A DNA stretch of 64,000 bases from Mytilus galloprovincialis (taxonomy: Eukaryota > Mollusca > Bivalvia > Mytilida > Mytilidae): assembly GCF_965363235.1 (NCBI RefSeq), contig NC_134841.1, positions 36,485,440-36,549,439 on the forward strand. Reading direction: 5' to 3'. The position numbers were made by a program, and so were the translations under genes. Position 1 is the first letter of the stretch. The number at the start of each line of letters is the position of its first letter. Below are positions 10,455 through 62,398 of this stretch, piece after piece. The notes below the pieces were generated by a model. It did no database searches and was not told the DNA's origin. It saw only the letters and a list, made by a program, of their open reading frames with translations.

Positions 10455-10522
<68 letters not shown>

Positions 10523-14860: not shown

Positions 14861-15380
14861 AAAAAACCCTGACTTGACCTGTATTTTAATCGCCTTTTAA
14901 AACGGTTTAAACCTGCTACATTTGTCCAGTGTTTTTTTTAATAAACAATTAACTTACAAATAAGGCACCGAAATAGGAGCACACTCATTTACAGAAAGCT
15001 ATGACATAGCCAATTCCAACTAATATGATTAAAGTCTTCCAGACGGGTTGTTCTTTAATAACGAAACAACTACTAACGAAATAAGATCTATGCACAAATG
15101 CTACATTCATATAAAAAAGTACACACATCATGAAGTGACAGACATTAACTGCGAAAACATGTATATTTATTATGGTTGTGAAACGACAGTTTGTCAACCG
15201 GATATAAGTAGGCTTTTTAATTTTGAGGCTTTATTTGCATCATTGAGATACAAGTTTACTAGTTATTAGGGATGTCAAAAGATCTGAAATAATCATGGAC
15301 TCGGATACTCGGTCATGATACTCGATTACTCGCGCGTACTCGGATGAATTTTCAACGTCTATTGAAAAGTTGAGAGTTTA

Positions 15381-15676
15381 GGCAGCAACCATTTGATTTT
15401 CTGGGGGGGGGGGGGGGGTATGGTTTTTGGAAAAATAAGTTTGTTTCCAGGTTTTGGTGAAAAAAATAATTTGTTTTGGACCCTGAGAAAAAAAATTTGT
15501 TTGTTTCACCCTCAGCTGCCACTATATGTAATGCTAAAATTGAAAGAAAAAAATTGTTTTCGGTTTGTCGCTAAAAAAATAGATTGTTCTTCGCCAAAGG
15601 CGAAAAAAAAGTTTGCACAGAAAAAAAACCATAGCCCCCCCCCCCCCCCCCCCCAGAAAATCAAATGGTTGCTGCC
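15381..15676. mobile_element. MITE nested in the hAT element, TTA target duplication
   Basis: Ends GGCAGCAACCATTTGATTTT and AAAATCAAATGGTTGCTGCC are perfect inverted repeats continuing through a CTGGGG/CCCCAG step. TTA flanks both sides (15,378-15,380 and 15,677-15,679). The empty site is preserved in the third hAT copy at about 42,870-42,885. The duplicated copy is at about 17,394-17,689, with different G/C homopolymer lengths. Confidence 0.88.
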
Positions 15677-16072
15677 TTAGGTGGAATGCAGTGTTTTCTG
15701 TTATCACCTTTCATAAACATAAGAAAAATTTATTACAAACATAGCTTGGTCTTAAGTAAATATTATATATGTTTTTTTTTGTGTCAATTAAACAATGAAT
15801 TACCGACCGCCGTTTCTAAAAATAACCTATCATAATAGCAATTATTGTTTGTTTACGTTTTCATGAACCCAGAGACTTATAATACAATTACAAAAATGTA
15901 TATGAATGAACAAAATTCCAATAAAATTGAAAAATATTTGCATACAAAGTCCGACAAAGAAGACTACATTTGTATCATCTGTTCCTGAGGAGTCGGTATT
16001 TTTTATATTACGACTTGTCCATTTATTTGTCAACAACAGTATTGGACTTCAAATTATTCAATGTGCTTTTTC

Positions 16073-16115
16073 GTGTCGCCAAGGATTTGTATAGTATACA
16101 AATCCTTGGTGTCGC
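16073..16115. mobile_element. Micro-palindrome insertion, 29 bp, with exact 7-bp flanks
   Basis: CAAGGATTTGTATA, a single G, and TATACAAATCCTTG (16,080-16,108) form a perfect palindrome flanked by GTGTCGC on both sides. Copy 3 of the host element has a single GTGTCGC (43,249-43,255) with no palindrome. That is an empty site. Confidence 0.85.
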
Positions 16116-17383
16116 TCAGTCTTACTTTTTTGTGTGTGTGTTATTTTATTTTTTTTGTATTTTGCACTATCGTTTGTCTTATTTTCCTTTTTTTAGCCAC
16201 GATATTGTCAGTTTATTTTCGACTTTTGGATTTGAAAGTTGATTTCGTACTTTCGCCTATCTTTAGTTAAATTTCAAACACAGAGTAATTAAATTATACA
16301 TCTCCGAAGATACCAATCACGTTTATATAGAAGTCTTGATTAACGAACAAAGGTAAGTTTAACTTTCGTGATGAGTTAATTATTAATCCATGGAAGTGTT
16401 GATCCGTGTATAAACTCCGTTCAAATGTCTCTAATCAGTTGCGGTTCACCACAGGTCACTTTGTTCTTATTAAGAAATTTGATCTGGTCAACAGTTTCAG
16501 ACGAAAGACTGTTTAACTTTCTATTTTTTGTTTCAAGTAGTGCACATGAAAACATTCCCTCGGAAGAAAAAGACGTTGATGGTACTACTATAACAAATAG
16601 TAAGTTAACCTAAGGAAAACATATTTATGCTGTTAAGGATGTACTTAGGTGAGGTTTTGGAATATCCAAAAGTGTCAAATGTTCGGACTCCTCGGTGTTT
16701 TTCATACGATACCATGTACAATATTTTGCCCCGTAACACCTATTTATCTTTTAACATAAGACTTTATAATTCATAAAAGGTCATTTAACAAAATTTAAGC
16801 AGATTCTTGATTTTCTTTCTTTTGATTTGAGACCCATGCAAATAATACCAATGCAAAATAAATGTTAAAGTCCGAGTCAGCCTTTTCCCGCCATATTTTA
16901 TAAATCAAATATCTCTAAAAGGAGCTTCATGACCTATCAATATTTTTAGTTTAGTTTGATCCTCTCTAATACTCCTCCAGTTTAAAGTATCAATTTTGAA
17001 TTCTTGATTTATTTAATTTTTGCTTAGATCACCTAAGTACATCCTTAATTGTTTTAGTACAACGAAGGGGATATTTCATCGTAACTAAAGTAAGTGGAAA
17101 TGTGAAGAGAAATATCTCAAGATGTATAACAGCAAACGAGTATCAGAGTACTCGGCCTTTCGAGTACTCGTTGCCATCCCTACTAGTTATACTAGCCTGT
17201 TGTCAGAAAAAAAAATATGCAACATGAATTGTTTTTGCGATACATATTAGAATTTTCCTTGGCTTATAATGAACCCCAATGAAAACTGTTTGAATGTATA
17301 CTTTATTGCAAAAATCATATCTATGCTATCACCGTGTATCATCGTACAGCGGATATAGGTACCAACCAAGCGGGCGTGAGCGA

Positions 17384-19194
17384 TGAGAGTTTAGGCAGCA
17401 ACCATTTGATTTTCTGGGGGGGGGGGGGGGGGGGCTATGGTTTTTGGAAAAATAAGTTTGTTTCCAGGTTTTGGTGAAAAAAATAATTTGTTTTGGACCC
17501 TGAGAAAAAAAAATTTGTTTGTTTCACCCTCAGCTGCCACTATATGTAATGCTAAAATTGAAAGAAAAAAATTGTTTTCGGTTTGTCGCTAAAAAAATAG
17601 ATTGTTCTTCGCCAAAGGCGAAAAAAAAGTTTGCACAGAAAAAAAACCATAGCCCCCCCACCCCCCAGAAAATCAAATGGTTGCTGCCTTAGGTGGAATG
17701 CAGTGTTTTCTGTTATCACCTTTCATAAACATAAGAAAAATTTATTACAAACATAGCTTGGTCTTAAGTAAATATTATATATGTTTTTTTTTGTGTCAAT
17801 TAAACAATGAATTACCGACCGCCGTTTCTAAAAATAACCTATCATAATAGCAATTATTGTTTGTTTACGTTTTCATGAACCCAGAGACTTATAATACAAT
17901 TACAAAAATGTATATGAATGAACAAAATTCCAATAAAATTGAAAAATATTTGCATACAAAGTCCGACAAAGAAGACTACATTTGTATCATCTGTTCCTGA
18001 GGAGTCGGTATTTTTTATATTACGACTTGTCCATTTATTTGTCAATAACAGTAATGGACTTCAAATTATTCAATGTGCTTTTTCGTGTCGCCAAGGATTT
18101 GTATAGTATACAAATCCTTGGTGTCGCTTAGTCTTACTTTTTTGTGTGTGTGTTATTTTATTTTTTTTGTATTTTGCACTATCGTTTGTCTTATTTTCCT
18201 TTTTTTAGCCATGATATTGTCAGTTTATTTTCGACTTTTGGATTTGAAAGTTGATTTCGTACTTTCGCCTATCTTTAGTTAAATTTCAAACACAGAGTAA
18301 TTAAATTATACATCTCCGAAGATACCAATCACGTTTATATAGAAGTCTTGATTAACGAACAAAGGTAAGTTTAACTTTCGTGATGAGTTAATTATTAATC
18401 CATGGAAGTGTTGATCCGTGTATAAACTCCGTTCAAATGTCTCTAATCAGTTGCGGTTCACCACAGGTCACTTTGTTCTTATTAAGAAATTTGATCTGGT
18501 CAACAGTTTCAGACGAAAGACTGTTTAACTTTCTATTTTTTGTTTCAAGTAGTGCACATGAAAACATTCCCTCGGAAGAAAAAGACGTTGATGGTACTAC
18601 TATAACAAATAGTAAGTTAACCTAAGGAAAACATATTTATGCTGTTAAGGATGTACTTAGGTGAGGTTTTGGAATATCCAAAAGTGTCAAATGTTCGGAC
18701 TCCTCGGTGTTTTTCATACGATACCATGTACAATATTTTGCCCCGTAACACCTATTTATCTTTTAACATAAGACTTTATAATTCATAAAAGGTCATTTAA
18801 CAAAATTTAAGCAGATTCTTGATTTTCTTTCTTTTGATTTGAGACCCATGCAAATAATACCAATGCAAAATAAATGTTAAAGTCCGAGTCAGCCTTTTCC
18901 CGCCATATTTTATAAATCAAATATCTCTAAAAGGAGCTTCATGACCTATCAATATTTTTAGTTTAGTTTGATCCTCTTTAATACTCCTCCAGTTTAAAGT
19001 ATCAATTTTGAATTCTTGATTTATTTAATTTTTGCTTAGATCACCTAAGTACATCCTTAATTGTTTTAGTACAACGAAGGGGATATTTCATCGTAACTAA
19101 AGTAAGTGGAAATGTGAAGAGAAATATCTCAAGATGTATAACAGCAAACGAGTATCCGAGTACTCGGCCTTTCGAGTACTCGTTGCCATCCCTA
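17384..19194. mobile_element. hAT-type element copy 2 (left-truncated by the duplication)
   Basis: It lacks the first 104 bp because the duplication began inside the element. The right end CCATCCCTA and flank CTAGTTAT are intact (19,186-19,202). It holds second copies of the nested MITE and the micro-palindrome (about 18,092-18,120). Confidence 0.88.
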
Positions 19195-19397
19195 CTAGTT
19201 ATACTAGCCTGTTGTCAGAAAAAAAAATATGCAACATGAATTGTTTTTGCAATACATATTAGAATTTTCCTTGGCTTATAATGAACCCCAATGAAAACTG
19301 TTTGAATGTATACTTTATTGCAAAAATCATATCTATGCTATCACCGTGTATCATCGTACAGCGGATATAGGTACCAACCAAGCGGGCGTGAGCGATT

Positions 19398-38095: not shown

Positions 38096-38974
38096 AAAAT
38101 TTCATTCACCAGAAGATCTCAACATTGTTCCAGAATATCTCAACCGATACCAGAAAATCTCAACATGACATAATTTATAACATATTTAGCTTAATGAAAT
38201 TATATTAGTAAAGAAAAAGAAGAAACTGTAATTTTATGTTCATAATGTTTTAGAAAAATACTAATTTACTGATATATATGCTAGTTTATCAATGATATCA
38301 CTGTCATTTTGTCAATAGCTGACTGCGCTGGCCACATTTACCTGCTGGAGAAAAGTCATTACGATGTCATTTTAAATTATATTCATTTGTGTTATACACG
38401 AGATAAACCGTACTTCCAATATCTATGGCATGACATTCTCCGATTTGACAAAAAACGCATTGATTTTCAGTAAATTGACGAAAATTCGACCTACCCTGTG
38501 TTTATTTTGAATATTTTGAACCAGAAAAGCTCAACAGGAAGTGCCAGAATACTTTTTTCCGTCTCAACATTTGGTTGAGATTAGATGGTTTACCAGGCGT
38601 GTCAGTGTCATCCGCAAAAAGAATAAGATCTATAAGAATATTATTCACAGTAACGGCATCATTCCGCATATCAATATGAACGTCCTCAATCAAGTCAATG
38701 ATGAAGATTAAAAACAAAAGAAGCGACAAGGGTTCCCCTTGTTTTACCCCCATTAAATTATCGAACGATTCGGATAAAATACCACCTGATCTAACACGCA
38801 TTTTAACAGAAGAATAGATAGATTTCACAATAGTAACAAATTTGGAGCTAATTCCACTTTTAAGGAGTTTATACGTAAGTATTCTTCGGTCCAGCTTGTC
38901 AAACGCTTTACGGAAATCTACGAATAAACAGTACATATTTTGCTTTTGTTAAAGAGTATTAGTAATAATTCCAT

Positions 38975-41368: not shown

Positions 41369-41484
41369 CAACGATGAGAAACCCGTGCAGAGACAGAAAA
41401 CCTACGTGATTAGAAATTGGGATATTGTTTTTGTTTGTATTTATATATAAAGTTATGCCGTTTTCCATCTTGAAAACAACAAAA

Positions 41485-41690
41485 TTGAGAGCGGAAATGG
41501 TGAATGTGTCAAAGAGACAACCATCCAATAAAGAGCAGAAAACAGCCAAGGTCACCAATGAGTCTTCAACACAAGGAGAAAATACCGGACCCGGAGTCGG
41601 GCTGTTGCTGGCCCTAAATTTGCAATTTTCAGACCTGTCAGTTACACAACACAAAGTTAAAGATCGGGTGCACAAACATAAATGAGCACG
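41485..41690. repeat. Dispersed bivalve repeat, second copy
   Basis: AATGGTGAATGTGTCAAAGA, AAGGTCACCAATGAGTCTTC and CGGGCTGTTGCTGGCCC match the family at 3,778-3,995. Open frames on both strands here are repeat by-products. Confidence 0.65.
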
Positions 41691-42019: not shown

Positions 42020-42745
42020 AATTACAAACGGTTAAGCATGTAGACAGACTTGTGAACATGTTGACGGACTGATGGACATGTAGACAGTCACACAGCTTGG
42101 TAAACAAATAGATCGACTGATAGCCGTGTCGACAGACTGTTGGAAATGAAAACACAGCTTGTTAGACATATAGATCGACTGACAGTTGTGTCGACAGACT
42201 GTTGGACATGAAGACACAGCTTGTTAGATATATAGACCGACTGATAGTCATGTAAACACAGCTCGGTAGACATATAGATCGACAGACAGTCGTATCGACG
42301 GACTGTTGAACATGAAGACGCAGGTTGTTAGATATACAGACCGATATAGCCATGTCGACAGACTGTTGGACATGTAGACACAGCTTGGTAGACATATAAA
42401 CCGACTGATAGTCATGTCGACGGACTGTTGGACATGTAGACACAGCTCGGTAGACATATAGATCGACTGACAGTCGTGTCGACAGACTATTGAACATGAA
42501 GACACAGCTTGTTAGATATATAGACCGATATAGCCATTTCGACAGACTGTTGGGCATGAAGACAGACTAGTGGACACATAGACAGACCGATGCAAATGTA
42601 GACGGACTAGTGAACAAAGACAGACTTGCGGAAACATATCCAGACTGTTGAGAATATAGACAGACTATTATAAAAGACTGGTGAAAATAAAGACAAACTT
42701 GTAGACACATAGACAGAATGATGAACATGTATAGACAAAAATGTG
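42020..42745. repeat. 62-bp minisatellite with about 20-bp sub-periodicity
   Basis: Units alternate GACTGTTGGACATGTAGACA, CAGCTTGGTAGACATATA and GATCGACTGATAGTCGTGTC. The 62-bp period is clear from about 42,080 to 42,560 and decays at both ends into single GACAGACT...GAACATGTA sub-units. Overlapping minus-strand open frames (42,032-42,557) are products of the repeat. Confidence 0.88.
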
Positions 42746-42774
42746 TTAAGGTAAATTGACACTGAAAAAAATTA

Positions 42775-44110
42775 TAGGGATGTCAAAATATCTGAAATTT
42801 AATACTTAGATACTCGGTCATGATACTCGAGTACTCGGATGAATCTTAAACGTCTATTGAAAAGTTGAGATTTTAGGTGGAATGCAGATAATGCAGTGTT
42901 TTTGTTATTACCTTTCATAAACATATTAAGACAAATTTATTACAAACATAGCTTGCTCTTATGTTTTTTTGTGTCAATTAAACAATGAATTATCGACCGC
43001 CGTTTCTACAATCAACCTATCATAATAGCAATTATTGTTTGTATACGTGTTCATGAACCCAGAGACATATATTACAATAATATGAATGAACAAAATTCCA
43101 ATAAAATTAAACATATTTGCATACAAAGTCCGACAAAAAAGACTACATTTTTATCATCTGCTACTGAGGAGTCGGTATTTTTTATATTACGACTTGTCCA
43201 TTAATTTGTCAACAACAGTATTGAACTTCAAATTATTTGTGCTTTTCCGTGTCGCTCAGTCTTACTTTTTTCTGTGTTTGTTTTACACAGAGTAATTAAA
43301 TTATACATCTCATACCAATCACGTTTATATAGAAGTCTTGATTAACGAACAAAGGTAAGTTTTACACTCGTGATGAGTTAATTATTAATCCATGAAAGTG
43401 TTGATCCGTGTATAACCACCGTTCAAATGCCTATAATCAGTTGCGTAGGGTTCACCGTTTCTTATTAAGAAATATGATCTGGTCAACAGTTTCAGACGAA
43501 AGACTGTTTGACTTTCTATTTTTTGTTTCAAGTAGTGCACATGAAAACATTCATTCGGAAGAAAAGAACGTTGATGGTACTTCTATAACAAATAGTAACC
43601 TAAGGAAAACATATTTATGCTGTTAAGGATGTTCTTAGGTGAGGTTTTGGAATAAATGTCAAATGTTCGGACTCCTCGGTGTTTTTCTTACGATACAATG
43701 TAAAATATTTTGCCCCATAACACCTATTTATCTTTTAACATAAAACTTAATATTTCATAAAATGTCATTTGACAAAATTTAAGCAGATTCTTGATTTTCT
43801 TTCTTTTGATTTGAGACCCAAATAATACCAATGCAAAACTAAGGTAAAAGTCCAAGTCAGCCTGTTCCCGCCATATTTTATAAATCAAATATCTCGAAAA
43901 GAAGCTCCATGACTTATCAAAATTTTTAGCTTAGTTTGATCCTTTTTAATTTCAATACTCTTCCAGCTTAAAGTATGAATTTTGAATTCTTGATTTATTT
44001 AATTTTACCTTAGATCACCTAAGTACACCCTTAATTGTTTTTTTTTAGTATAACGAAGTGGATATAATTTTCATCTGAACTAAAGTGAGTGGAAATGTGA
44101 AGAGAAATAT
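42775..44110. mobile_element. hAT-type element copy 3, older, right end missing at the micro-exon array
   Basis: It begins TAGGGATGTCAAAATATCTG and follows copies 1 and 2 with clear divergence and small deletions. It lacks the nested GGCAGCAACC MITE, the 29-bp palindrome and the TTGTCAGTTTATTTTCGA tail block, so it shows the ancestral state. It stops after GTGAAGAGAAATAT (44,097-44,110), about 80 bp before the expected end, where array-linked sequence begins. Confidence 0.85.
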
Positions 44111-47100
44111 TCCTCGGCGGAATGATTGGCTCATGACACACAGATTGAAGATTTGCAGGTATGTTTTCTGTTAAGGCCTTTGTGTATGTCTAATGGTTCC
44201 TTTTTTTCCCTTTAGGTCGTGTTGCCTAAGGGACATTTGCCGGTATGTTTTCTGTTAAGGCCTTTGTGTATGTCAAATGTGGCCTTTTCTTTTTTTCTGG
44301 CAGGGCGCGATGCAGATTGAAGATTCGCAGGTATGTTTTCTGTTAAGGCCTTTGTGTATGTCTAATGTCGCCTTTTCTTTTTTTCTGACAGGGCGCGACG
44401 CAGATTGAAGATTCGCAGGTATGTTTTCTGTTAAGGCCTTTGTGTATGTCTAATGTCGCCTTTTCTTTTTTTCTGGCAGGGCGCGACGCAGATTGAAGAT
44501 TCGCAGGTATGTTTTCTGTTAAGGCCTTTGTGTATGTCTAATGTTGCCTTTTCCTTTTTTCTAGCAGGGCGCGACACAGATTGAGGAATTCCAGGTATGT
44601 TTTCTGTTAAGACCTTTGTGTATGTCTAATGTTGTCTTTTCTTTTTTTCTGGCAGGGCGCGACACAGATTGGAGATTCGCAGGTATGTTTTCTGTTAAGG
44701 CCTTTGTGTATGTCTAATGTCGCCTTTTCTTTTTTTCTAGCAGGTCGCGACGCAGATTGAGGTATTCCAGGTATGTTTTCTGTTAAGACCTTTGTGTATG
44801 TCTAATGTAGCCTTTTCTTTTTTTCTAGCAGGTCGGGACGCAGATTGAGGAATTCCAGGTATGTTTTCTGTTAAGACCTTTGTGTATGTCTAATGTCGCC
44901 TTTTCTTTTTTTCTAGCAGGTCGCGACGCAGGTTGAGGAATTCCAGGTATGTTTTCTGTTAAGACCTTTGTGTATGTCTAATGTCGCCTTTTCTTTTTTT
45001 CTAGCAGGTCGCGACGCAGATTGAGGTATTCCAGGTATGTTTTCTGTTAAGACCTTTGTGTATGTGTAATGTCGCCTTTTTTTTTTAAGCAGGTCGCGAC
45101 GCAGATTGAGGAATTCCAGGTATGTTTTCTGTTAAGACCTTTGTGTATGTCTAATGTTGTCTTTTCTTTTTTTCTGGCAGGGCGCGACGCAGATTGAGGT
45201 ATTCCAGGTATGTTTTCTGTTAAGACCTTTGTGTATGTCTAATGGTTCCTTTTTTTTCCTTTAGGTCGTGTGGCCTTTCTTTTTTTTTTGCAGGGCGCGA
45301 CGCAGATTGAGGATTTTCAGGTATGTTTTCTGTTAAGACCTTTGTGTATGTCTAATGTTGTCTTTTCTTTTTTTCTGGCAGGGCGCGACGCAGATTGGAG
45401 ATTCGCAGGTATGTTTTCTGTTAAGGCCTTTGTGTATGTCTAATGTCGCCTTTTCTTTTTTTCTAGCAGGTTGCGATGCAGATTGAGGTATTCCAGGTAT
45501 GTTTTCTGTTAAGACCTTTGTGTATGTCTAATGTCGCCTTTTCTTTTTTTCTAGCAGGTCACGACGCAGATTGAGGAATTCCAGGTATGTTTTCTGTTAA
45601 GACCTTTGTGTATGTCTAATGTTGTCTTTTCTTTTTTTCTGGCAGGGCGCGACGCAGATTGGAGATTCGCAGGTATGTTTTCTGTTAAGGCCTTTGTGTA
45701 TGTCTAATGTCGCCTTTTCTTTTTTTCTAGCAGGTCGCGACACAGATTGAGGTATTCCAGGTATGTTTTCTGTTAAGACCTTTGTGTATGTCTAATGTCG
45801 CCTTTTCTTTTTTTCTAGCAGGTCGCGACGCAGATTGAGGAATTCCAGGTATGTTTTCTGTTAAGACCTTTGTGTATGTCTAATGTTGTCTTTTCTTTTT
45901 TTCTGGCAGGGCGCGACGGAGATTGGAGATTCGCAGGTATGTTTTCTGTTAAGGCCTTTGTGTATGTCTAATGTCGCCTTTTCTTTTTTTCTAGCAGGTC
46001 GCGACGCAGATTGAGGAATTCCAGGTATGTTTTCTGTTAAGACCTTTGTGTATGTCTAATGTCGCCTTTTCTTTTTTTCTAACAAGTCGTGACACAGATT
46101 GAGGAATTCCAGGTATGTTTTCTGTTAAGACCTTTGTGTATGTCTAATGTTGTCTTTTCTTTTTTTCTGGCAGGGCACGACGCAGATTGGAGATTCGCAG
46201 GTATGTTTTCTGTTAAGGCTTTTGTGTATGTCTAATGTCGCCTTTTCTTTTTTTCTAGCAGGTCGCGACGCAGATTGAGGAATTCCAGGTATGTTTTCTG
46301 TTAAAACCTTTGTGTATGTCTAATGTCGCCTTTTCTTTTTTTCTAGCAGGTCGTGACGCAGATTGAGGAATTCCAGGTATGTTTTCTGTTAAGACCTTTG
46401 TGTATGTCTAATGTTGTCTTTTCTTTTTTTCTGGCAGGGCACGACGCAGGTTGGAGATTCGCAGGTATGTTTTCTGTTAAGGCCTTTGTGTATGTCTAAT
46501 GTCGCCTTTTCTTTTTTTCTAGCAGGTCGCGACGCAGATTGAGGTATTCCAGGTATGTTTTCTGTTAAGACCTTTGTGTATGTCTAATGTCGCCTTTTCT
46601 TTTTTTTCTAGCAGGTCGCGACGCAGATTGAGGTATTCCAGGTATGTTTTCTGTTAAGACCTTTGTGTATGTCTAATGTCGCCTTTTCTTTTTTTCTAGC
46701 AGGTCGCGACGCAGATTGAGGAATTCCAGGTATGTTTTCTGTTAAGACCTTTGTGTATGTCTAATGTTGTCTTTTCTTTTTTTCTGGCAGGGCGCGACGC
46801 AGATTGGAGATTCGCAGGTATGTTTTCTGTTAAGGCCTTTGTGTATGTCTAATGACGCCTTTTCTTTTTTTCTAGCAGGTCGTGACCCAGATTGAGGTAT
46901 TCCAGGTATGTTTTCTGTTAAGGCCTTTGTGTATGTCTAATGACGCCTTTTCTTTTTTTTCTAGCAGGTCGTGACGCAGATTGAGGTATTTCAGGTATGT
47001 TTTCTGTTAAGACCTTTGTGTATGTCTAATGTTGTCTTTTCTTTTTTTCTGGCAGGGCGCGACGCAGATTGGAGATTCGCAGGTATGTTTTCTGTTAAGA

Positions 47101-50100
47101 CCTTTGTGTATGTCTAATGTCGCCTTTTCTTTTTTTCTAGCATGTCGCGACGCAGATTGAGGTATTCCAGGTATGTTTTCTGTTAAGACCTTTCTGTATG
47201 TCTAATGGTTCCTTTTTTTTCCTTTAGGTCGTGTGGCCTTTCTTTTTTTTTTGCAGGGCGCGACGCAGATTGAGGATTTTCAGGTATGTTTTCTGTTAAG
47301 ACCTTTGTGTATGTCTAATGTTGTCTTTTCTTTTTTTCTGGCAGGGCGCGACGCAGATTGGAGATTCGCAGGTATGTTTTCTGTTAAGGCGTTTGTGTAT
47401 GTCTAATGTCGCCTTTTCTTTTTTTCTAGCATGTCGCGACGCAGATTGAGGTATTCCAGGTATGTTTTCTGTTAAGACCTTCGTGTATGTCTAATGTCAC
47501 CTTTTCTATTTTTCTAGCAGGTCGCGACGCAGATTGAGGTATTCCAGGTATGTTTTCTGTTAAGACCTTTGTGTATGTCTAATGTCGCCTTTTCTTTTTT
47601 TCTAGCAGGTCGCGACGCAGATTGAGGAATTCCAGGTATGTTTTCTGTTAAGACCTTTGTGTATGTCTAATGTCGCCTTTTCTTTTTTTCTAGCAGATCG
47701 CGACGCAGATTGAGGTATTCCAGGTATGTTTTCTGTTAAGACCTTTGTGTATGCCTAATGTCGCCTTTTCTTTTTTTCTAGTAGGTCGCGACGCAGATTG
47801 AGGAATTCCAGGTATGTTTTCTGTTAAGACCTTTGTGTACATCTAATGTTGTCTTTTCTTTTTTTCTGGCAGGACGCGATGCATATTGGAGATTCGCAGG
47901 TATGTTTTCTGTTAAGTCCTTTGTGTATGTCTAATGTCGCCTTTTCTTTTTTTCTAGCAGGGCGCGACGCAGATTGAGGAATTCCAGGTATGTTTTCTGT
48001 TAAGACCTTTGTGTATGTCTAATGTTGTCTTTTCTTTTTTTCTGGCAGGGCGCGACGCAGATTGGAGATTCGCAGGTATGTTTTCTGTTAAGGCCTTTGT
48101 GTATGTCTAATGTCGCCTTTTTTTTTCTTTCTAGCAGGTGGCAATGCAGATTGAGGAATTCCAGGTATGTTTTCTGTTAAGACCTTTGTGTATGTCTAAT
48201 GTCGCCTTTTCTTTTTTTCTAGCAGGTCGCGACGCAGATTGAGGAATTCCAGGTATGTTTTCTGTTAAGGCCTTTGTGTATGTCTAATGTCGCCTTTTCT
48301 TTTTTTCTAGCAGGTCGCGATGCAGATTGAGGAATTCCAGGTATGTTTTCTGTTAAGACCTTTGTGTATGTCTAATGTCGCCTTTTCTTTTTTTCTAGCA
48401 GGTCGTGACGCAGATTGAGGAATTCCAGGTATGTTTTCTGTTAAGACCTTTGTGTATGTCTAATGTTGTCTTTTCTTTTTTCTGGCAGGGCACGACGCAG
48501 ATTGGAGATTCGCAGGTATGTTTTCTGTTAAGGCCTTTGTGTATGTCTAATTTCGCCTTTTCTTTTTTTCTAGCAGGTCGCGACGCAGATTGAGGTATTC
48601 CAGGTATGTTTTCTGTTAAGACCTTTGTGTATGTCTAATGTCGCCTTTTCTTTTTTTCTAGCAGGTCGCGACGCAGATTGAGGAATTCCAGGTATGTTTT
48701 CTGTTAAGACCTTTGTGTATGTCTAATGTCGCCTTTTCTTTTTTTCTAGCAGATCGCGACGCAGATTGAGGTATTCCAGGTATGTTTTCTGTTAAGACCT
48801 TTGTGTATGCCTAATGTCGCCTTTTCTTTTTTTCTAGTAGGTCGCGACGCAGATTGAGGAATTCCAGGTATGTTTTCTGTTAAGACCTTTGTGTACATCT
48901 AATGTTGTCTTTTCTTTTTTTCTGGCAGGGCGCGACGCAGATTGAGGTATTCCAGGTATGTTTTCTGTTAAGACCTTTGTGTATGTCTAATGGTTCCTTT
49001 TTTTTCCTTTAGGTCGTGTGGCCTTTCTTTTTTTTTTGCAGGGCGCGACGCAGATTGAGGATTTTCAGGTATGTTTTCTGTTAAGACCTTTGTGTATGTC
49101 TAATATTGTCTTTTCTTTTTTTCTGGCAGGGCGCGACGCAGATTGGAGATTCGCAGGTATGTTTTCTGTTAAGGCCTTTGTGTATGTCTAATGTCGCCTT
49201 TTCTTTTTTTCTAGCAGGTTGCGATGCAGATTGAGGTATTCCAGGTATGTTTTCTGTTAAGACCTTTGTGTATGTCTAATGTCGCCTTTTCTTTTTTTCT
49301 AGCAGGTCACGACGCAGATTGAGGAATTCCAGGTATGTTTTCTGTTAAGACCTTTGTGTATGTCTAATGTTGTCTTTTCTTTTTTTCTGGCAGGGCGCGA
49401 CGCAGATTGGAGATTCGCAGGTATGTTTTCTGTTAAGGCCTTTGTGTATGTCTAATGTCGCCTTTTCTTTTTTTCTAGCAGGTCGCGACACAGATTGAGG
49501 TATTCCAGGTATGTTTTCTGTTAAGACCTTTGTGTATGTCTAATGTCGCCTTTTCTTTTTTTCTAGCAGGTCGCGACGCAGATTGAGGAATTCCAGGTAT
49601 GTTTTCTGTTAAGACCTTTGTGTATGTCTAATGTTGTCTTTTCTTTTTTTCTGGCAGGGCGCGACGGAGATTGGAGATTCGCAGGTATGTTTTCTGTTAA
49701 GGCCTTTGTGTATGTCTAATGTCGCCTTTTCTTTTTTTCTAGCAGGTCGCGACGCAGATTGAGGAATTCCAGGTATGTTTTCTGTTAAGACCTTTGTGTA
49801 TGTCTAATGTCGCCTTTTCTTTTTTTCTAGCAGGTCGTGACGCAGATTGAGGAATTCCAGGTATGTTTTCTGTTAAGACCTTTGTGTATGTCTAATGTTG
49901 TCTTTTCTTTTTTTCTGGCAGGGCACGACGCAGATTGGAGATTCGCAGGTATGTTTTCTGTTAAGGCCTTTGTGTATGTCTAATGTCGCCTTTTCTTTTT
50001 TTCTAGCAGGTCGCGACGCAGATTGAGGAATTCCAGGTATGTTTTCTGTTAAGACCTTTGTGTATGTCTAATGTCGCCTTTTCTTTTTTTCTAGCAGGTC

Positions 50101-53100
50101 GTGACGCAGATTGAGGAATTCCAGGTATGTTTTCTGTTAAGACCTTTGTGTATGTCTAATGTTGTCTTTTCTTTTTTTCTGGCAGGGCACGACGCAGATT
50201 GGAGATTCGCAGGTATGTTTTCTGTTAAGGCCTTTGTGTATGTCTAATGTCGCCTTTTCTTTTTTTCTAGCAGGTCGCGACGCAGATTGAGGTATTCCAG
50301 GTATGTTTTCTGTTAAGACCTTTGTGTATGTCTAATGTCGCCTTTTCTTTTTTTTCTAGCAGGTCGCGACGCAGATTGAGGTATTCCAGGTATGTTTTCT
50401 GTTAAGACCTTTGTGTATGTCTAATGTCGCCTTTTCTTTTTTTCTAGCAGGTCGCGACGCAGATTGAGGAATTCCAGGTATGTTTTCTGTTAAGACCTTT
50501 GTGTATGTCTAATGTTGTCTTTTCTTTTTTTCTGGCAGGGCGCGACGCAGATTGGAGATTCGCAGGTATGTTTTCTGTTAAGGCCTTTGTGTATGTCTAA
50601 TGACGCCTTTTCTTTTTTTCTAGCAGGTCGTGACGCAGATTGAGGTATTCCAGGTATGTTTTCTGTTAAGGCCTTTGTGTATGTCTAATGACGCCTTTTC
50701 TTTTTTTTCTAGCAGGTCGTGACGCAGATTGAGGTATTTCAGGTATGTTTTCTGTTAAGACCTTTGTGTATGTCTAATGTTGTCTTTTCTTTTTTTCTGG
50801 CAGGGCGCGACGCAGATTGGAGATTCGCAGGTATGTTTTCTGTTAAGACCTTTGTGTATGTCTAATGTCGCCTTTTCTTTTTTTCTAGCATGTCGCGACG
50901 CAGATTGAGGTATTCCAGGTATGTTTTCTGTTAAGACCTTTCTGTATGTCTAATGGTTCCTTTTTTTTCCTTTAGGTCGTGTGGCCTTTCTTTTTTTTTT
51001 GCAGGGCGCGACGCAGATTGAGGATTTTCAGGTATGTTTTCTGTTAAGACCTTTGTGTATGTCTAATGTTGTCTTTTCTTTTTTTCTGGCAGGGCACGAC
51101 GCAGATTGGAGATTCGCAGGTATGTTTTCTGTTAAGGCGTTTGTGTATGTCTAATGTCGCCTTTTCTTTTTTTCTAGCATGTCGCGACGCAGATTGAGGT
51201 ATTCCAGGTATGTTTTCTGTTAAGACCTTCGTGTATGTCTAATGTCACCTTTTCTATTTTTCTAGCAGGTCGCGACGCAGATTGAGGTATTCCAGGTATG
51301 TTTTCTGTTAAGACCTTTGTGTATGTCTAATGTCGCCTTTTCTTTTTTTCTAGCAGGTCGCGACGCAGATTGAGGAATTCCAGGTATGTTTTCTGTTAAG
51401 ACCTTTGTGTATGTCTAATGTCGCCTTTTCTTTTTTTCTAGCAGATCGCGACGCAGATTGAGGTATTCCAGGTATGTTTTCTGTTAAGACCTTTGTGTAT
51501 GCCTAATGTCGCCTTTTCTTTTTTTCTAGTAGGTCGCGACGCAGATTGAGGAATTCCAGGTATGTTTTCTGTTAAGACCTTTGTGTACATCTAATGTTGT
51601 CTTTTCTTTTTTTCTGGCAGGACGCGACGCATATTGGAGATTCGCAGGTATGTTTTCTGTTAAGTCCTTTGTGTATGTCTAATGTTGTCTTTTCTTTTTT
51701 TCTGGCAGGGCGCGACGCAGATTGGAGATTCGCAGGTATGTTTTCTGTTAAGGCCTTTGTGTATGTCTAATGTCGCCTTTTTTTTTCTTTCTAGCAGGTG
51801 GCAATGCAGATTGAGGAATTCCAGGTATGTTTTCTGTTAAGACCTTTGTGTATGTCTAATGTCGCCTTTTCTTTTTTTCTAGCAGGTCGCGACGCAGATT
51901 GAGGAATTCCAGGTATGTTTTCTGTTAAGGCCTTTGTGTATGTCTAATGTCGCCTTTTCTTTTTTTTCTTGCAGGTCGCGACGCAGATTGAGGAATTCCA
52001 GGTATGTTTTCTGTTAAGACCTTTGTGTATGTCTAATGTCGCCTTTTCTTTTTTTCTAGCAGGTCGTGACGCAGATTGAGGAATTCCAGGTATGTTTTCT
52101 GTTAAGACCTTTGTGTATGTCTAATGTTGTCTTTTCTTTTTTCTGGCAGGGCACGACGCAGATTGGAGATTCGCAGGTATGTTTTCTGTTAAGGCCTTTG
52201 TGTATGTCTAATTTCGCCTTTTCTTTTTTTCTAGCAGGTCGCGACGCAGATTGAGGTATTCCAGGTATGTTTTCTGTTAAGACCTTTGTGTATGTCTAAT
52301 GTCGCCTTTTCTTTTTTTCTAGCAGGTCGCGCCGCAGATTGAGGAATTCCAGGTATGTTTTCTGTTAAGACCTTTGTGTATGTCTAATGTCGCCTTTTCT
52401 TTTTTTCTAGCAGATCGCGACGCAGATTGAGGTATTCCAGGTATGTTTTCTGTTAAGACCTTTGTGTATGCCTAATGTCGCCTTTTCTTTTTTTCTAGTA
52501 GGTCGCGACGCAGATTGAGGAATTCCAGGTATGTTTTTTGTTAAGACCTTTGTGTACATCTAATGTTGTCTTTTCTTTTTTTCTGGCAGGACGCGACGCA
52601 TATTGGAGATTCGCAGGTATGTTTTCTGTTAAGTCCTTTGTGTATGTCTAATGTCGCCTTTTCTTTTTTTCTAGCAGGGCGCGACGCAGATTGAGGAATT
52701 CCAGGTATGTTTTCTGTTAAGACCTTTGTGTATGTCTAATGTTGTCTTTTCTTTTTTTCTGGCAGGGCGCGACGCAGATTGAAGATTCGCAGGTATATTT
52801 TCTGTTAAGGCCTTTGTGTATGTCTAATGTTGTCATTTCTTTTTTTCTGGCAGGGCGCGACGCAGATTGGAGATTCGCAGGTATGTTTTCTGTTAAGGCC
52901 TTTGTGTATGTCTAATGTCGCCTTTTTTTTCTTTCTAGCAGGTGGCAATGCAGATTGAGGAATTCCAGGTATGTTTTCTGTTAAGACCTTTGTGTATGTC
53001 TAATGTCGCCTTTTCTTTTTTTCTAGCAGGTCGCGACGCAGATTGAGGAATTCCAGGTATGTTTTCTGTTAAGGCCTTTGTGTATGTCTAATGTCGCCTT

Positions 53101-56100
53101 TTCTTTTTTTCTAGCAGGTCGCGACGCAGATTGAGGAATTCCAGGTATGTTTTCTGTTAAGACCTTTGTGTATGTCTAATGTCGCCTTTTCTTTTTTTCT
53201 AGCAGGTCGTGACGCAGATTGAGGAATTCCAGGTATGTTTTCTGTTAAGACCTTTGTGTATGTCTAATGTTGTCTTTTCTTTTTTCTGGCAGGGCACGAC
53301 GCAGATTGGAGATTCGCAGGTATGTTTTCTGTTAAGGCCTTTGTGTATGTCTAATGTCGCCTTTTCTTTTTTTCTAGCAGGTCGCGACGCAGATTGAGGT
53401 ATTCCAGGTATGTTTTCTGTTAAGACCTTTGTGTATGTCTAATGTCGCCTTTTCTTTTTTTCTAGCAGGTCGCGACGCAGATTGAGGTATTCCAGGTATG
53501 TTTTCTGTTAAGGCCTTTGTGTATGTCTAATGTCGCCTTTTCTTTTTTTCTAGCAGGTCGCGACACAGATTGAGGAATTCCAGGTATGTTTTCTGTTAAG
53601 ACCTTTGTGTATGTCTAATGTTGTCTTTTCTTTTTTTCTGGCAGGGCGTGACGCAGATTGGAGATTCGCAGGTATGTTTTCTGTTAAGGCCTTTGTGTAT
53701 GTCTAATGATGCCTTTTCTTTTTTTCTAGCAGGTCGTGACACAGATTGAGGTATTCCAGGTATGTTTTCTGTTAAGACCTTTGTGTATGTCTAATGTCGC
53801 CTTTTCTTTTTTTCTAGCAGGTCGTGACGCAGATTGAGGAATTCCAGGTATGTTTTCTGTTAAGACCTTTGTGTATGTCTAATGTTGTCTTTTCTTTTTT
53901 CTGGCAGGGCACGACGCAGATTGGAGATTCGCAGGTATGTTTTCTGTTAAGGCCTTTGTGTATGTCTAATGTCGCCTTTTCTTTTTTTCTAGCAGGTCGC
54001 GACGCAGATTGAGGTATTCCAGGTATGTTTTCTGTTAAGACCTTTGTGTATGTCTAATGTCGCCTTTTCTTTTTTTCTAGCAGGTCGCGACGCAGATTGA
54101 GGTATTCCAGGTATGTTTTCTGTTAAGGCCTTTGTGTATGTCTAATGTCGCCTTTTCTTTTTTTCTAGCAGGTCGCGACACAGATTGAGGAATTCCAGGT
54201 ATGTTTTCTGTTAAGACCTTTGTGTATGTCTAATGTTGTCTTTTCTTTTTTTCTGGCAGGGCGTGACGCAGATTGGAGATTCGCAGGTATGTTTTCTGTT
54301 AAGGCCTTTGTGTATGTCTAATGATGCCTTTTCTTTTTTTCTAGCAGGTCGTGACGCAGATTGAGGTATTCCAGGTATGTTTTCTGTTAAGACCTTTGTG
54401 TATGTCTAATGTTGTCTTTTCTTTTTTTCTGGCAGGGCGCGACGCAGATTGGAGATTCGCAGGTATGTTTTCTGTTAAGGCCTTTGTGTATGTCTAATGT
54501 CACCTTTTCTATTTTTCTAGCATGACGCGACGGAGATTGAGGTATTCCAGGTATGTTTTCTGTGAAGACCTTTGTGTATGTCTAATGTTGTCTTTTCTTT
54601 TTTTCTGGCAGGTCGCGAAGCAGATTGAGGTATTCCAGGTATGTTTTCTGTTAAGACCTTTGTGTATGTCTAATGTCGCCTTTTCTTTTTTTCTAGCAGG
54701 TCGTGACGCAGATTGAGGAATTCCAGGTATGTTTTCTGTTAAGACCTTTGTGTATGTCTAATATCGCCTTTTCTTTTTTTCTAGCAGGTCGTGACGCAGA
54801 TTGAGGAATTCCAGGTATGTTTTCTGTTAAGACCTTTGTGTATGTCTAATGTCGCCTTTTCTTTTTTTCTAGCATGACGCGACGGAGATTGAGGTATTCC
54901 AGGTATGTTTTCTGTGAAGACCTTTGTGTATGTCTAATGTTGTCTTTTCTTTTTTTTTGGCAGGGCGCGACGCAGATTGGAGATTCGCAGGTATGTTTTC
55001 TGTTAAGGTCTTTGTGTATGTTTAATGTCGCCTTTTCTTTTTTTCTAGCAGGTCGCGACGCAGATTGAGGTATTCCAGGTATGTTTTCTGTAAAGACCTT
55101 TGTGTATGTCTAATGGTTGCTTTTTTTTTACTTTAGGTCGTGTGGCCTTTCTTTTTTTTTTGCAGGGCGAGACGCAGATTGAGGATTTTCAGGTATGTTT
55201 TCTGTTAAGACCTTTGTGTATGTCTAATGTTGTCTTTTCTTTTTTTCTGGCAGGGCGCAATGCAGATTGAGGTATTCCAGGTATGTTTTCTGTTAAGACC
55301 TTTGTGTATGTCTAATGGCGCCTTTTCTTTTTTTCTAGCAGGTCGTGACGCAGATTGAGGAATTCCAGGTATATTTTCTGTTAAGACCTTTGTGTATGTC
55401 TAATGTTGTCTTTTCTTTTTTTCTGGCAGGGCGCGACGCAGATTGAGGAATTCCAGGTATGTTTTCTGTTAAGACCTTTGTGTATGTCTAATGTTATCTT
55501 TTCTTTTTTTCTGGCAGGGCGCGACGCAGATTGGAGATTCGCAGGTATGTTTTCTGTTAAGGCCTTTGTGTATGTCTAATGTCGCCTTTTCTTTTTTTCT
55601 AGCAGGTCGCGAAGCAGATTGAAGTATTCCAGGTATGTTTTCTGTTAAGACCTTTGTGTATGTCTAATGTTGTCTTTTCTTTTTTTCTGGCAGGGCTCGA
55701 CGCAGATTGGAGATTCACAGGTATGTTTTCTGTTAAGGCCTTTGTGTATGTCTAATGTCGCCTTTTCTTTTTTTCTAGCAGGTCGCGACGCAGATTGAGG
55801 TATTCCAGGTATGTTTTCTGTTAAGACCTTTGTGTATGTCTAATGTTGTCTTTTCTTTTTTTCTGGCAGGGCGCGACGCAGATTGGAGATTCGCAGGTAT
55901 GTTTTCTGTTAAGGCCTTTGTGTATGTCTAATGTCGCCTTTTCTTTTTTTCTAGCAGGTCGCGACGTAGATTGAGGTATTCCAGGTATGTTTTCTGTTAA
56001 GACCTTTGTGTATGTCTAATGTTGTCTTTTCTTTTTTTCTGGCAGGGCGCGACGCAGATTGGAGATTCGCAGGTATGTTTTCTGTTAAGGCGTTTGTGTA

Positions 56101-59100
56101 TGTCTAATGTCGCCTTTTCTTTTTTTCTAGCAGGTCGTCACGCAGATTGAGGAATTCCAGGTATGTTTTCTGTTAAGACCTTTGTGTATGTCTAATGTTG
56201 TCTTTTCTTTTTTCTGGCAGGGCACGACGCAGATTGGAGATTCGCAGGTATGTTTTCTGTTAAGGCCTTTGTGTATGTCTAATTTCGCCTTTTCTTTTTT
56301 TCTAGCAGGTCGCGACGCAGATTGAGGTATTCCAGGTATGTTTTCTGTTAAGACCTTTGTGTATGTCTAATGTCGCCTTTTCTTTTTTTCTAGCAGGTCG
56401 CGCCGCAGATTGAGGAATTCCAGGTATGTTTTCTGTTAAGACCTTTGTGTATGTCTAATGTCGCCTTTTCTTTTTTTCTAGCAGATCGCGACGCAGATTG
56501 AGGTATTCCAGGTATGTTTTCTGTTAAGACCTTTGTGTATGCCTAATGTCGCCTTTTCTTTTTTTCTAGTAGGTCGCGACGCAGATTGAGGAATTCCAGG
56601 TATGTTTTCTGTTAAGACCTTTGTGTACATCTAATGTTGTCTTTTCTTTTTTTCTGGCAGGACGCGACGCATATTGGAGATTCGCAGGTATGTTTTCTGT
56701 TAAGTCCTTTGTGTATGTCTAATGTCGCCTTTTCTTTTTTTCTAGCAGGGCGCGACGCAGATTGAGGAATTCCAGGTATGTTTTCTGTTAAGACCTTTGT
56801 GTATGTCTAATGTTGTCTTTTCTTTTTTTCTGGCAGGGCGCGACGCAGATTGAAGATTCGCAGGTATATTTTCTGTTAAGGCCTTTGTGTATGTCTAATG
56901 TTGTCATTTCTTTTTTTCTGGCAGGGCGCGACGCAGATTGGAGATTCGCAGGTATGTTTTCTGTTAAGGCCTTTGTGTATGTCTAATGTCGCCTTTTTTT
57001 TCTTTCTAGCAGGTGGCAATGCAGATTGAGGAATTCCAGGTATGTTTTCTGTTAAGACATTTGTGTATGTCTAATGTCGCCTTTTCTTTTTTTCTAGCAG
57101 GTCGCGACGCAGATTGAGGAATTCCAGGTATGTTTTCTGTTAAGGCCTTTGTGTATGTCTAATGTCGCCTTTTCTTTTTTTCTAGCAGGTCGTCACGCAG
57201 ATTGAGGAATTCCAGGTATGTTTTCTGTTAAGACCTTTGTGTATGTCTAATGTCGCCTTTTCTTTTTTTTCTAGCATGACGCGACGCAGATTGAGGTATT
57301 CCAGGTATGTTTTCTGTGAAGACCTTTGTGTATGTCTAATGTTGTCTTTTCTTTTTTTCTGGCAGGGCGCGATGCAGATTGGAGATTCGCAGGTATGTTT
57401 TCTGTTAAGGCCTTTGTGTATGTCTAATGTCACCTTTTCTTTTTTTCTAGCAGGTCGCGACGCAGATTGAGGAATTCCAGGTATGTTTTCTGTTAAGACC
57501 TTTGTGTATGTCTAATGTCGCCTTTTCTTTTTTTCTAGCAGGTCGTGACGCAGATTGAGGAATTCCAGGTATGTTTTCTGTTAAGACCTTTGTGTATGTC
57601 TAATGTTGTCTTTTCTTTTTTTTCTGGCAGGGTGCGACGTAGATTGAGGTATTCCAGGTATGTTTTCTGTTAAGACCTTTCTGTATGTCTAATGGTTCCT
57701 TTTTTTTTCCTTTAGGTCGTGTGGCCTTTCTTTTTTTTTTGCAGGGCGCGACGCAGATTGAGGATTTTCAGGTATGTTTTCTGTTAAGACCTTTGTGTAT
57801 GTCTAATGTTGTCTTTTCTTTTTTTCTGGCAGGGCGCGACGCAGATTGGAGATTCGCAGGTATGTTTTCTGTTAAGGCGTTTGTGTATGTCTAATGTCGC
57901 CTTTTCTTTTTTTCTAGCATGTCGCGACGCAGATTGAGGTATTCCAGGTATGTTTTCTGTTAAGACCTTTGTGTATGTCTAATGTCGCCTTTTCTTTTTT
58001 TCTAGCAGGTCGTGACGCAGATTGAGGAATTCCAGGTATGTTTTCTGTTAAGACCTTTGTGTATGTATAATGTTGTCTTTTCTTTTTTTCTGGCAGGGTG
58101 CGACGCAGATTGGAGATTCGCAGGTATGTTTTCTGTTAAGGTCTTTGTGTATGTCTAATGTCGCCTTTTCTTTTTTCTAGCATGACGCGATGGAGATTGA
58201 GGTATTCCAGGTATGTTTTCTGTGAAGACCTTTGTGTATGTCTAATGTTGTCTTTTCTTTTTTTCTGGCAGGTCGCGAAGCAGATTGAGGTATTCCAGGT
58301 ATGTTTTCTGTTAAGACCTTTGTGTATGTCTAATGTCGCCTTTTCTTTTTTTCTAGCAGGTCGTGACGCAGATTGAGGAATTCCAGGTATGTTTTCTGTT
58401 AAGACCTTTGTGTATGTCTAATGTCGCCTTTTCTTTTTTTCTAGCAGGTCGTGATGCAGATTGAGGAATTCCAGGTATGTTTTCTGTTAAGACCTTTGTG
58501 TATGTCTAATGTCGCCTTTTCTTTTTTTCTAGCATGACGCGATGGAGATTGAGGTATTCCAGGTATGTTTTCTGTGAAGACCTTTGTGTATGTCTAATGT
58601 TGTCTTTTCTTTTTTTCTGGCAGGGCGCGACGCAGATTGGAGATTCGCAGGTATGTTTTCTGTTAAGGTCTTTGTGTATGTCTAATGTCGCCTTTTCTTT
58701 TTTTCTAGCAGGTCGCGACGCAGATTGAGGTATTCCAGGTATGTTTTCTGTAAAGACCTTTGTGTATGTCTAATGGTTCCTTTTTTTTTACTTTAGGTCG
58801 TGTGGCCTTTCTTTTTTTTTGCAGGGCGAGACGCAGATTGAGGATTTTCAGGTATGTTTTCTGTTAAGACCTTTGTGTATGTCTAATGTTTTCTTTTCTT
58901 TTTTTCTGGCAGGGCGCAATGCAGATTGAGGTATTCCAGGTATGTTTTCTGTTAAGACCTTTGTGTATGTCTAATGGCGCCTTTTCTTTTTTTCTAGCAG
59001 GTCGTGACGCAGATTGAGGAATTCCAGGTATGTTTTCTGTTAAGACCTTTGTGTATGTCTAATGTTGTCTTTTCTTTTTTTTTGGCAGGGCGTGACGCAG

Positions 59101-59617
59101 ATTGAGGAATTCCAGGTATGTTTTCTGTTAAGACCTTTGTGTATGTCTAATGTTATCTTTTCTTTTTTTCTGGCAGGGCGCGACGCAGATTGGACATTCG
59201 CAGGTATGTTTTCTGTTAAGGCCTTTGTGTATGTCTAATGTCGCCTTTTCTTTTTTTCTAGCAGGTCGCGAAGCAGATTGAGGTATTCCAGGTATGTTTT
59301 CTGTTAAGACCTTTGTGTATGTCTAATGTTGTCTTTTCTTTTTTTCTGGCAGGGCGCGACGCAGATTGGAGATTCGCAGGTATGTTTTCTGTTAAGGCCT
59401 TTGTGTATGTCTAATGTCGCCTTTTCTTTTTTTCTAGCAGGTCGCGACGCAGATTGAGGTAGTCCGGACACAAAATGCATATCAACTTTTTGCACCGGAA
59501 CCTTGCCCTAATGGAAATAAAGGTGGAATTTCCCCTTCTCGGAAGCTCTCTGACTTTATCCATACTTTTTCTTCTCTATTCTTTCCTCCACTATCTGGAG
59601 TACCACTACTCTTGTAG
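44111..59617 (+). CDS. Candidate giant micro-exon gene: about 170 tandem 27-nt exons (or exon-derived minisatellite)
   Basis: The basic unit is about 88 bp. It has a 27-nt exon-like block, then GTATGTTTTCTGTTAAG, a TCTAATG motif whose A lies about 26 nt before the acceptor, a C/T tract, and CTAGCAG or CTGGCAG. Blocks are phase 0 at both ends and encode nine residues. Main types are VATQIEEFQ, VATQIEVFQ, GATQIGDSQ, GATQIEDSQ and GATQIEDFQ. Block length stays 27 nt while T-tract length varies. Measured introns at 44,243-44,303 and 44,331-44,391 are both 61 bp, far shorter than the DCAF12 introns nearby. If spliced, it would give roughly 1,500 residues of nine-residue repeats. Two blocks contain an in-frame TAG (55,967 and 57,640), and one acceptor is AAG (about 46,086). 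No family recognised. No promoter or start exon was found. Confidence 0.5.
44144..44158 (+). CDS. First, divergent block of the array
   Basis: IEDLQ followed by GTATGT. Upstream sequence reads DTQ before it, but an in-frame TGA lies just before and no T-rich acceptor tract is present. CACACAG is the only nearby AG, so this may be a broken or exapted edge unit rather than a usable exon. Confidence 0.3.
44216..44242 (+). CDS. Divergent 27-nt exon encoding VVLPKGHLP
   Basis: It is bounded by TTTCCCTTTAG and CCG/GTATGT. The sequence is unlike the other blocks, yet it has exactly the same length and phase and is followed by a 61-bp intron. Eroded versions without a donor (GGTCGTGTGGCC) recur at about 45,265, 47,228, 49,012, 50,976, 55,136, 57,715 and 58,796. 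Confidence 0.45.
44304..44330 (+). CDS. Typical 27-nt micro-exon (GAMQIEDSQ)
   Basis: Acceptor TTTTTCTGGCAG, donor CAG/GTATGT. The next unit (44,392-44,418) reads GATQIEDSQ. These first units look closest to a common ancestor of the GDSQ, EEFQ and EVFQ types. Confidence 0.5.
59441..59617 (+). CDS. Terminal exon-like extension of the last array unit
   Basis: The last unit begins VATQIEV but has no donor. The frame continues VRTQNAYQLFAPEPCPNGNK and on to PLSGVPLLL with a TAG at 59,615-59,617, 58 codons in all. No AATAAA lies in the next few hundred bases. It may be a true last exon from which the array grew, or an array breakpoint that happens to stay open. Not recognised. Confidence 0.4.
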   Translation, partial: VATQIEVVRTQNAYQLFAPEPCPNGNKGGISPSRKLSDFIHTFSSLFFPPLSGVPLLL

Positions 59618-61839: not shown

Positions 61840-62398
61840 ATCTGAGATAATTGGTGTAAACACCAATTTCACATATCTTTTTGAAGGATTTGGGTGGTCA
61901 TTAAAAGGACCTTTGGTTGAGTTGCTGGGTTGCTGTCTCATCTATGGTGCTGGTGGTAGTTTTCTCTTGCAGTTAGTACTATGGGTAAGAAAGGCAGGCA
62001 CTGGGTCCAACTGTCCTTTTCTGTAAACATCTTGCTCTTTACTTTTTAGCTTGGCCTCTCTATGTTCCACTATTTTTTCCCCACTCTGTGTAACAATGTG
62101 TAAGACATCTATGTTTAACTTCCGGTTTTTTTCCATAGTCTTGCTTGTTAGGTAAACTGTTTATCCATGCTTTGCTGAGGTTCCTGGCAAGTTGTTGTTT
62201 CTGTGAATTCCAGATGCCAATCTGGCCTCCATGCCTCTTGAGAAGATTACATACATTCTTAGGTAAATTCACACTCAAAGACCTGTGCACAGCTTCATTC
62301 TTGTTGGTGGTGTTGTAAAGCTTCATACTACTAATTGCATCTTCGCTAAGCTTCATTCTCAAGATCTCTTGTAGTAACAACTTTTCTTTTTCATCCAT
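61840..62398 (-). pseudogene. Decayed coding remnant, probably mobile-element derived
   Basis: The minus strand begins MDEKEKLLLQEILRMKLSED and includes YNTTNKNEAVHRSLSVNLPK and a later segment with VYRKGQLDPVPAFL. The TTNKNEA-H-R.LSV-LPKNV pattern reminds me of C-terminal parts of transposon-encoded proteins found in aquatic invertebrates, but I cannot name the family. It appears broken, and no intact gene is proposed. Confidence 0.4.

Follow-up and report, generated by a model that had tools for sequence, protein, structure and literature searches.

A 27-nucleotide exon-like block repeated with its minimal intron across 15 kilobases of the mussel Mytilus galloprovincialis genome: exon–donor junction depleted of change, peptide frame neutral

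How does a block with the look of a very short exon come to stand 171 times in a row inside an array, and has selection kept its splicing, its peptide, or neither? The question is raised by a 64,000-nucleotide (nt) stretch of the Mytilus galloprovincialis genome (contig NC_134841.1, positions 36,485,440 to 36,549,439; hereafter the window), where a tandem array occupies positions 44132–59467 on the forward strand, as do all array features described below. The answer favoured here, held with about even confidence, is that a 27-nt exon and its minimal intron may have spread together by unequal exchange, the ability of each unit to be spliced being kept and the encoded peptide not.

The array runs from the start of its first block at 44132 to the end of its last at 59467 in units of 88 base pairs (bp). 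A first-pass annotation made from the sequence had described some 170 tandem 27-nt exons with splice signals, and the array, its structure and its coordinates are confirmed: 171 internal 27-nt blocks and 172 donors (44159–59380) were counted, each donor opening a minimal intron made up of GTATGT or GTATAT, a CTAAT-like site, a pyrimidine tract and AG. By pattern search and alignment, GT is present in 172 of 172 introns, as GTATGT in 169 and GTATAT in three. With GTATAT admitted, the largest donor spacing is 114 bases and no gap of two units occurs; the count has therefore skipped no unit whose donor is gone. A 36-base intron probe, allowed up to three mismatches, matches 172 copies against 0.00 expected from 100 shuffles. 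The introns preceding the internal blocks measure 61 nt in 147 cases, 62 in nine, 60 in six, 86 in five, 87 in two, and 57 and 58 in one each. In the consensus the second A of CTAAT lies 26 nt before the intron end, matching the spacing of about 26 nt ahead of the acceptor given at first pass. An AG immediately precedes 160 of the 171 internal blocks (154 CAG, 6 TAG); in a further ten, CAG has changed to CAT and an in-frame TAG stands three bases earlier, so that 170 of 171 retain an in-frame AG in one of these two positions. Tandem NAGNAG acceptors occur in 93 of 171 (87 TAGCAG, 5 TAGTAG, 1 AAGCAG).

The block columns are free of gaps in all 172 aligned units, which bears out the earlier observation that block length is held at 27 nt. 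Because the first 47 intron columns are almost as indel-free as the block (a single unit is gapped, in columns 45–47), and outside its T tract the intron is for the most part equally so, constant block length alone is not coding evidence and was set aside. Elsewhere in the window, neither block nor intron has relatives beyond short chance matches.

The splice signals of a unit exceed what its base composition would give. Splice-site tables were used to score the best donor–acceptor pair bounding an exon of 12–45 nt in two unit types, and the score was compared with 2000 dinucleotide shuffles. No shuffle of either unit type reached the score of the pair (0 of 2000 each); 18 and 16 shuffles reached that of the donor by itself, and 6 and 6 that of the acceptor by itself. 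The splice anatomy described at first pass thus lies above chance.

The main reason for placing splicing above a plain satellite is the history of the donor. The CAG/GTATGT nine-mer, which spans the exon end and the donor, carries two inferred changes, both at +5, where 11.6 are expected from the same kinds of bases elsewhere in the unit (P ~0.002, 100000 draws). The shortfall recurs in the first half of the array (0 changes against 7.9 expected, P 0.00025) and in the second (2 against 8.1, P 0.018). Leaving out a 31-unit duplicate gives 2 against 11.1 (P 0.0023), a second tree again gives 2 against 11.6 (P 0.002), and for donor positions −2 to +6 P is 0.015. Among 88 circular nine-base segments of the unit, the donor ranks third. 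The segments at unit positions 59 and 60 rank ahead of it (24 changes against 33.7 and 32.8 expected, 0.0 of 4000 draws). Both were set aside: each holds four CpG sites, its shortfall is far smaller than the donor's, and its draws have little spread because the reference pool contains only two sites per CpG class. The donor depletion is moderate evidence that spliceability has been kept. It also bears directly on the most serious rival, a plain minisatellite seeded from an exon–intron junction, young and homogenised, in which the signals of the founder persist and which is neither transcribed nor spliced today. This rival is less probable than the favoured reading and a real contender; the depletion in both array halves counts against it, as do array ends that fall at block edges and not at random unit positions.

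Several results, on single sites, on the peptide and on the 5′ end of the array, weigh against a spliced coding array, and most of them speak for the plain minisatellite. Seven site sets were tried in the depletion test, and no significant depletion was seen for GT alone (P 0.17), for donor positions +1 to +6 (P 0.12), for CTAAT at the branch site (P 0.32), for YAG (P 0.30) or for AG (P 0.63). Since the donor-only sets are non-significant, the donor signal depends on the three bases at the exon end, which also form the Q codon. One block (46086–46112), the sole such case among the 171 internal blocks, has lost both acceptor AGs (TAACAA). Counting the 171 internal blocks and that of exon 1, frame 0 is interrupted by a stop in 2 of 172, frame +1 in 25 and frame +2 in 128. 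A single open frame in a 27-nt unit is often expected by chance. The two nonsense blocks of frame 0 read VAT*IEVFQ (55958–55984) and GAT*IEVFQ (57631–57657), the asterisk marking the stop. Joining all blocks leaves 1180 codons open in frame 0 from the ATG at 44310. Frame +1, opened by an ATG at 44133, was rejected as a full reading, as its first stop, in the 22nd internal block, comes after 199 codons and those 25 blocks all contain one.

The changes that have accumulated in the blocks are those expected of a peptide under no constraint. They were counted by parsimony on a tree from which the first and last of the 172 units were omitted, leaving 170, with the neutral expectation conditioned on the CpG, transition and transversion events of the block. 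Frame 0 has taken 19 synonymous, 39 missense and 2 nonsense changes against 18.6, 39.4 and 2.0 under neutrality, a ratio of 0.97 (95% range 0.55–1.78); on the second tree the counts are 17.6, 39.4 and 2.0 against 18.1, 39.0 and 1.9. Frame +1 is likewise near neutral (12.0, 42.4 and 4.0 against 14.0, 40.6 and 4.8). Because the frame 0 counts match the neutral ones, strong purifying selection on the peptide is unlikely over the span recorded by the array; weak selection is compatible with them. The exon has in fact changed faster than the intron, with a diversity of 0.158 against 0.055 and 2.2 against 1.2 events per site. Diversifying selection on the block was considered and rejected, as CpG transitions make up about 22 of its 60 events and the counts by class fit neutrality.

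At the 5′ end, a remnant of exon 1 (44111–44158) consists of 21 unique bases followed by the first block (44132–44158), with a donor and no acceptor. In frame 0 it contains a TGA at 44123–44125 and no ATG afterwards. The first block differs from the nearest array block at 7 of 27 positions, and the second (44216–44242, VVLPKGHLP, 27 nt) at 9 of 27; the first frame-0 ATG, at 44310, lies in the third block (44304–44330, GAMQIEDSQ). A strict screen of 10.2 kilobases (kb) upstream for first exons with an ATG and phase 0 returned none. A shorter length limit admitted two nested candidates (42718–42750, 10–11 codons), and lower donor limits one and two others. The upstream candidates are thus few, weak or very short, and no clear first coding exon is seen among them.

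These results bear hardest on the proposal made at first pass, namely a functional gene that would produce many protein isoforms by skipping among 171 symmetric exons. Phase and length would permit it, with 171 blocks that all measure 27 nt and no frame-0 stop in 170 of the 172, and the 93 tandem NAGNAG acceptors could add single residues. But the peptide shows no constraint, nonsense blocks are present, exon 1 lacks a frame-0 start and a transposon stands at its left, so that a protein function of this kind is improbable. Searches of the joined blocks point the same way: with 14 blocks joined, Pfam returned seven families, all below cut-offs (best E 1.3e-5) and taken as repeat artefacts, and the PDB gave 0 matches.

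The transposon is a truncated, non-autonomous hAT-like copy at 42775–44110 on the forward strand, aligned in three pieces at 82–88% identity to an intact 1916-bp non-autonomous element at 15267–17182 in the window. The intact element has termini TAGGGATG and CATCCCTA and 8-bp duplications CTAGTTAT, features typical of such elements, from which it is presumed to be hAT-like; it sits in a tandem duplication of about 2.0 kb (15267–19396) whose copies are 99% identical. The array-side copy begins with the left terminus TAGGGATG at 42775, its alignment ends at 44110 (17115 in the intact copy) and it is without the last 67 bases of the latter. Because it ends at 44110, 21 bases separate it from the first block. 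Directly to its left lies a tandem repeat (42037–42587) with units of about 20 and 62 bp. This junction counts in favour of the plain minisatellite, and it raises a third alternative, in which the array would be the cargo of a mobile element, either hAT-like or a tandem-repeat-bearing Helentron, and move and spread with it. Bivalve elements with central tandem repeats are described in one report (PMC7492417), and the 21-nt distance to the first block is suggestive. However, the intact element carries no such array and no unit occurs elsewhere in the window; a search beyond the array as far as 64000, by exact 8-mer and by 19-mer with up to four mismatches, gave no right terminus for the hAT-like copy, and the array is not enclosed by both termini of one hAT-like element (Helentron termini were not searched for). 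The oyster elements, as far as that text describes them, mostly have monomers of 140–180 bp and a longest array of 29.3 copies (PMC7492417). A cargo origin is accordingly very improbable.

Homology at both array ends breaks off inside or at the edge of an exon block. At the right end, a putative terminal exon (59441–59617) consists of the last block (59441–59467) and 49 further frame-0 codons up to a TAG. According to which span is shuffled, an opening of this length arises in 10.2, 6.4 or 2.8% of 1000 randomised sequences, and it is weak evidence.

Between these ends the units lie head to tail and have been homogenised by recent exchange, an organisation typical of minisatellites and satellites. 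The best-scoring tandem period is 264 bp, or three units, with a score of 21936; a period of two units scores 18377. Units differ on average by 7.4 positions at an offset of three, against 8.9 and 8.2 at offsets of one and two. Over offsets of 1–44 the lowest mean difference, 6.1, is found at 42 units. Block types do not follow one another in a strict sequence: the commonest triple accounts for 16 of 169. One run of 31 units is repeated 42 units away with 12 differences in total. Seven units of 113–114 bp (at 45205, 47168, 48953, 50916, 55076, 57655 and 58736) contain extra 3′ intron sequence resembling block 2 and the following intron; they may all derive from one old deletion product that was later copied about the array, in which case they would mark exchange between distant units. 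Only 85 of the 170 units are distinct, and the splice signals may for this reason simply be recent, as the plain minisatellite would have it.

Taken together, the results in favour of a spliced array are the paired anatomy unmatched in 2000 shuffles, the donor depletion, GT in 172 of 172 introns, AG retained in 170 of 171 blocks, the copied run of 31 units and the 49-codon extension at the right. On the favoured reading, a 27-nt symmetric exon and a 61-nt minimal intron would have been multiplied head to tail inside a transcribed gene, with unequal exchange as the probable motor, to give 171 internal exons, each unit being spliceable independently. It is proposed that gain and loss of units are tolerated because each adds 27 nt and leaves the frame untouched, and that the donor is kept because every unit needs its own. 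Selection would then preserve CAG/GTATGT for pairing with the U1 small nuclear RNA while the peptide drifts, and the product, if made, would be a long repeat of low constraint built around (V/G)ATQI(E/G)(E/V/D)(F/S)Q. As the truncated transposon abuts the first block, the 5′ end of such a gene may be damaged here or lie at a distance. A more specific form of the reading, put forward tentatively and rather doubtful at present, is that the array behaves as a splice-competent satellite: selection would maintain splicing unit by unit and be blind to the peptide, and the gene would carry a freely expanding array of symmetric exons.

Were this so, a transcript, and not silent DNA, would conceal the growth of the satellite. 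If spliced, the array would surpass every case in the literature searched in both the number of consecutive near-identical exons and the density of their packing. It would pose the question of how a spliceosome finds the right partners among 172 near-identical donors and acceptors spaced every 88 bases, and offer a natural single-locus case in which selection on splicing is separated from selection on protein. If unspliced, it would demonstrate how nearly a young satellite can resemble a gene, a point of importance for annotating genomes.

The closest known relatives are found in Schistosoma, as the first-pass annotation had suggested in its comparison with schistosome micro-exon genes; the parallel is narrower than that, since two loci of Schistosoma mansoni already possess tandem or multiple 27-bp exons. 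In the polymorphic mucin genes SmPoMuc, a 27-bp exon and its flanking introns form a tandem genomic repeat of about 1 kb with no more than 20 copies in a gene; the repeats are homogenised, and the product has variable numbers of 9-residue repeats (PMC2576457). The genes have 15 exons, GA-rich microsatellites in their units, proven transcripts and coding sequence under selective pressure (PMC2576457). The mussel array likewise repeats a 27-bp block, here a putative exon, in tandem with its flanking intron sequence. In contrast to SmPoMuc, it has 88-bp units and 171 blocks, it is known from DNA alone, and its frame 0 is neutral (ratio 0.97). Because unit size, copy number and the outcome of the selection test all differ, the array is likened to SmPoMuc and not classed as a member. 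Antigen 10-3 has multiple 27-bp exons, 81-bp repeats and proven, developmentally varied transcripts (PMC4015677); the best period of the mussel array similarly comprises three 27-nt blocks, whereas its transcription is a prediction.

Micro-exon genes are defined by at least seven exons, at least half of them micro-exons of less than 70 nt divisible by three, with at least four in a row (PMC7653826). The sequence model of the array has such exon numbers and lengths, but the criteria are meant for annotated genes and the mussel gene is putative; with the flatworm genes it shares a run of consecutive, here predicted, exons below 70 nt and divisible by three. Those genes are annotated, have long introns and encode proteins that keep an N-terminal signal peptide (PMC10526429); the candidate mussel gene has near-identical blocks and minimal introns. 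An aphid megacycle gene can reach more than 100 microexons through internal duplication, with 118 exons in M. sacchari (PMC9168663). The array model also exceeds 100, but the internal exons of bicycle and megacycle genes are of phase 2, as against phase 0 for the best open frame of the near-identical mussel blocks. Bivalve Helentrons, in the text cited above, carry satellite-like arrays, with monomers mostly of 140–180 bp and up to 29.3 copies (PMC7492417). These resemble the mussel array as homogenised tandem repeats near mobile elements and differ in that no exon anatomy is described for them there, whereas the mussel units have that of exon and intron. Tandem 27-bp exons and genes with more than 100 microexons are thus each known separately, and what is new is a denser and larger variant. 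In the literature searched, the matches listed included neither near-identical exons by the hundred at 88-bp spacing nor any description of a molluscan array of this type.

Pattern searches were extended to other collections. The 36-base intron probe had 0 matches in viral contigs. In genome contigs a degenerate 21-base pattern gave at least 120 matches, as did a 15-base pattern in the viral ones; among the matches listed, both occurred once per stretch and were taken as chance.

Searches of the window gave 0 Rfam matches and 0 transfer RNAs. An open frame of 112 residues lies at 62060–62398 on the reverse strand and has no Pfam match at E 0.1. A reverse transcriptase fragment is located at 38502–38936 on the reverse strand (Pfam RVT_1, E 2.3e-7), and an uninterrupted run of 61 T at 10458–10518. 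A dispersed repeat is present at 41481–41618 and 3776–3917, with 75% identity between the copies. Tandem arrays with units of 32 bp (14.8 copies, 78% matches) and 25 bp (14.0 copies, 96% matches) fall within 1455–2332. The repeats at 41481–41618 and 1455–1922 resemble dispersed repeats of Mytilus and may belong with them.
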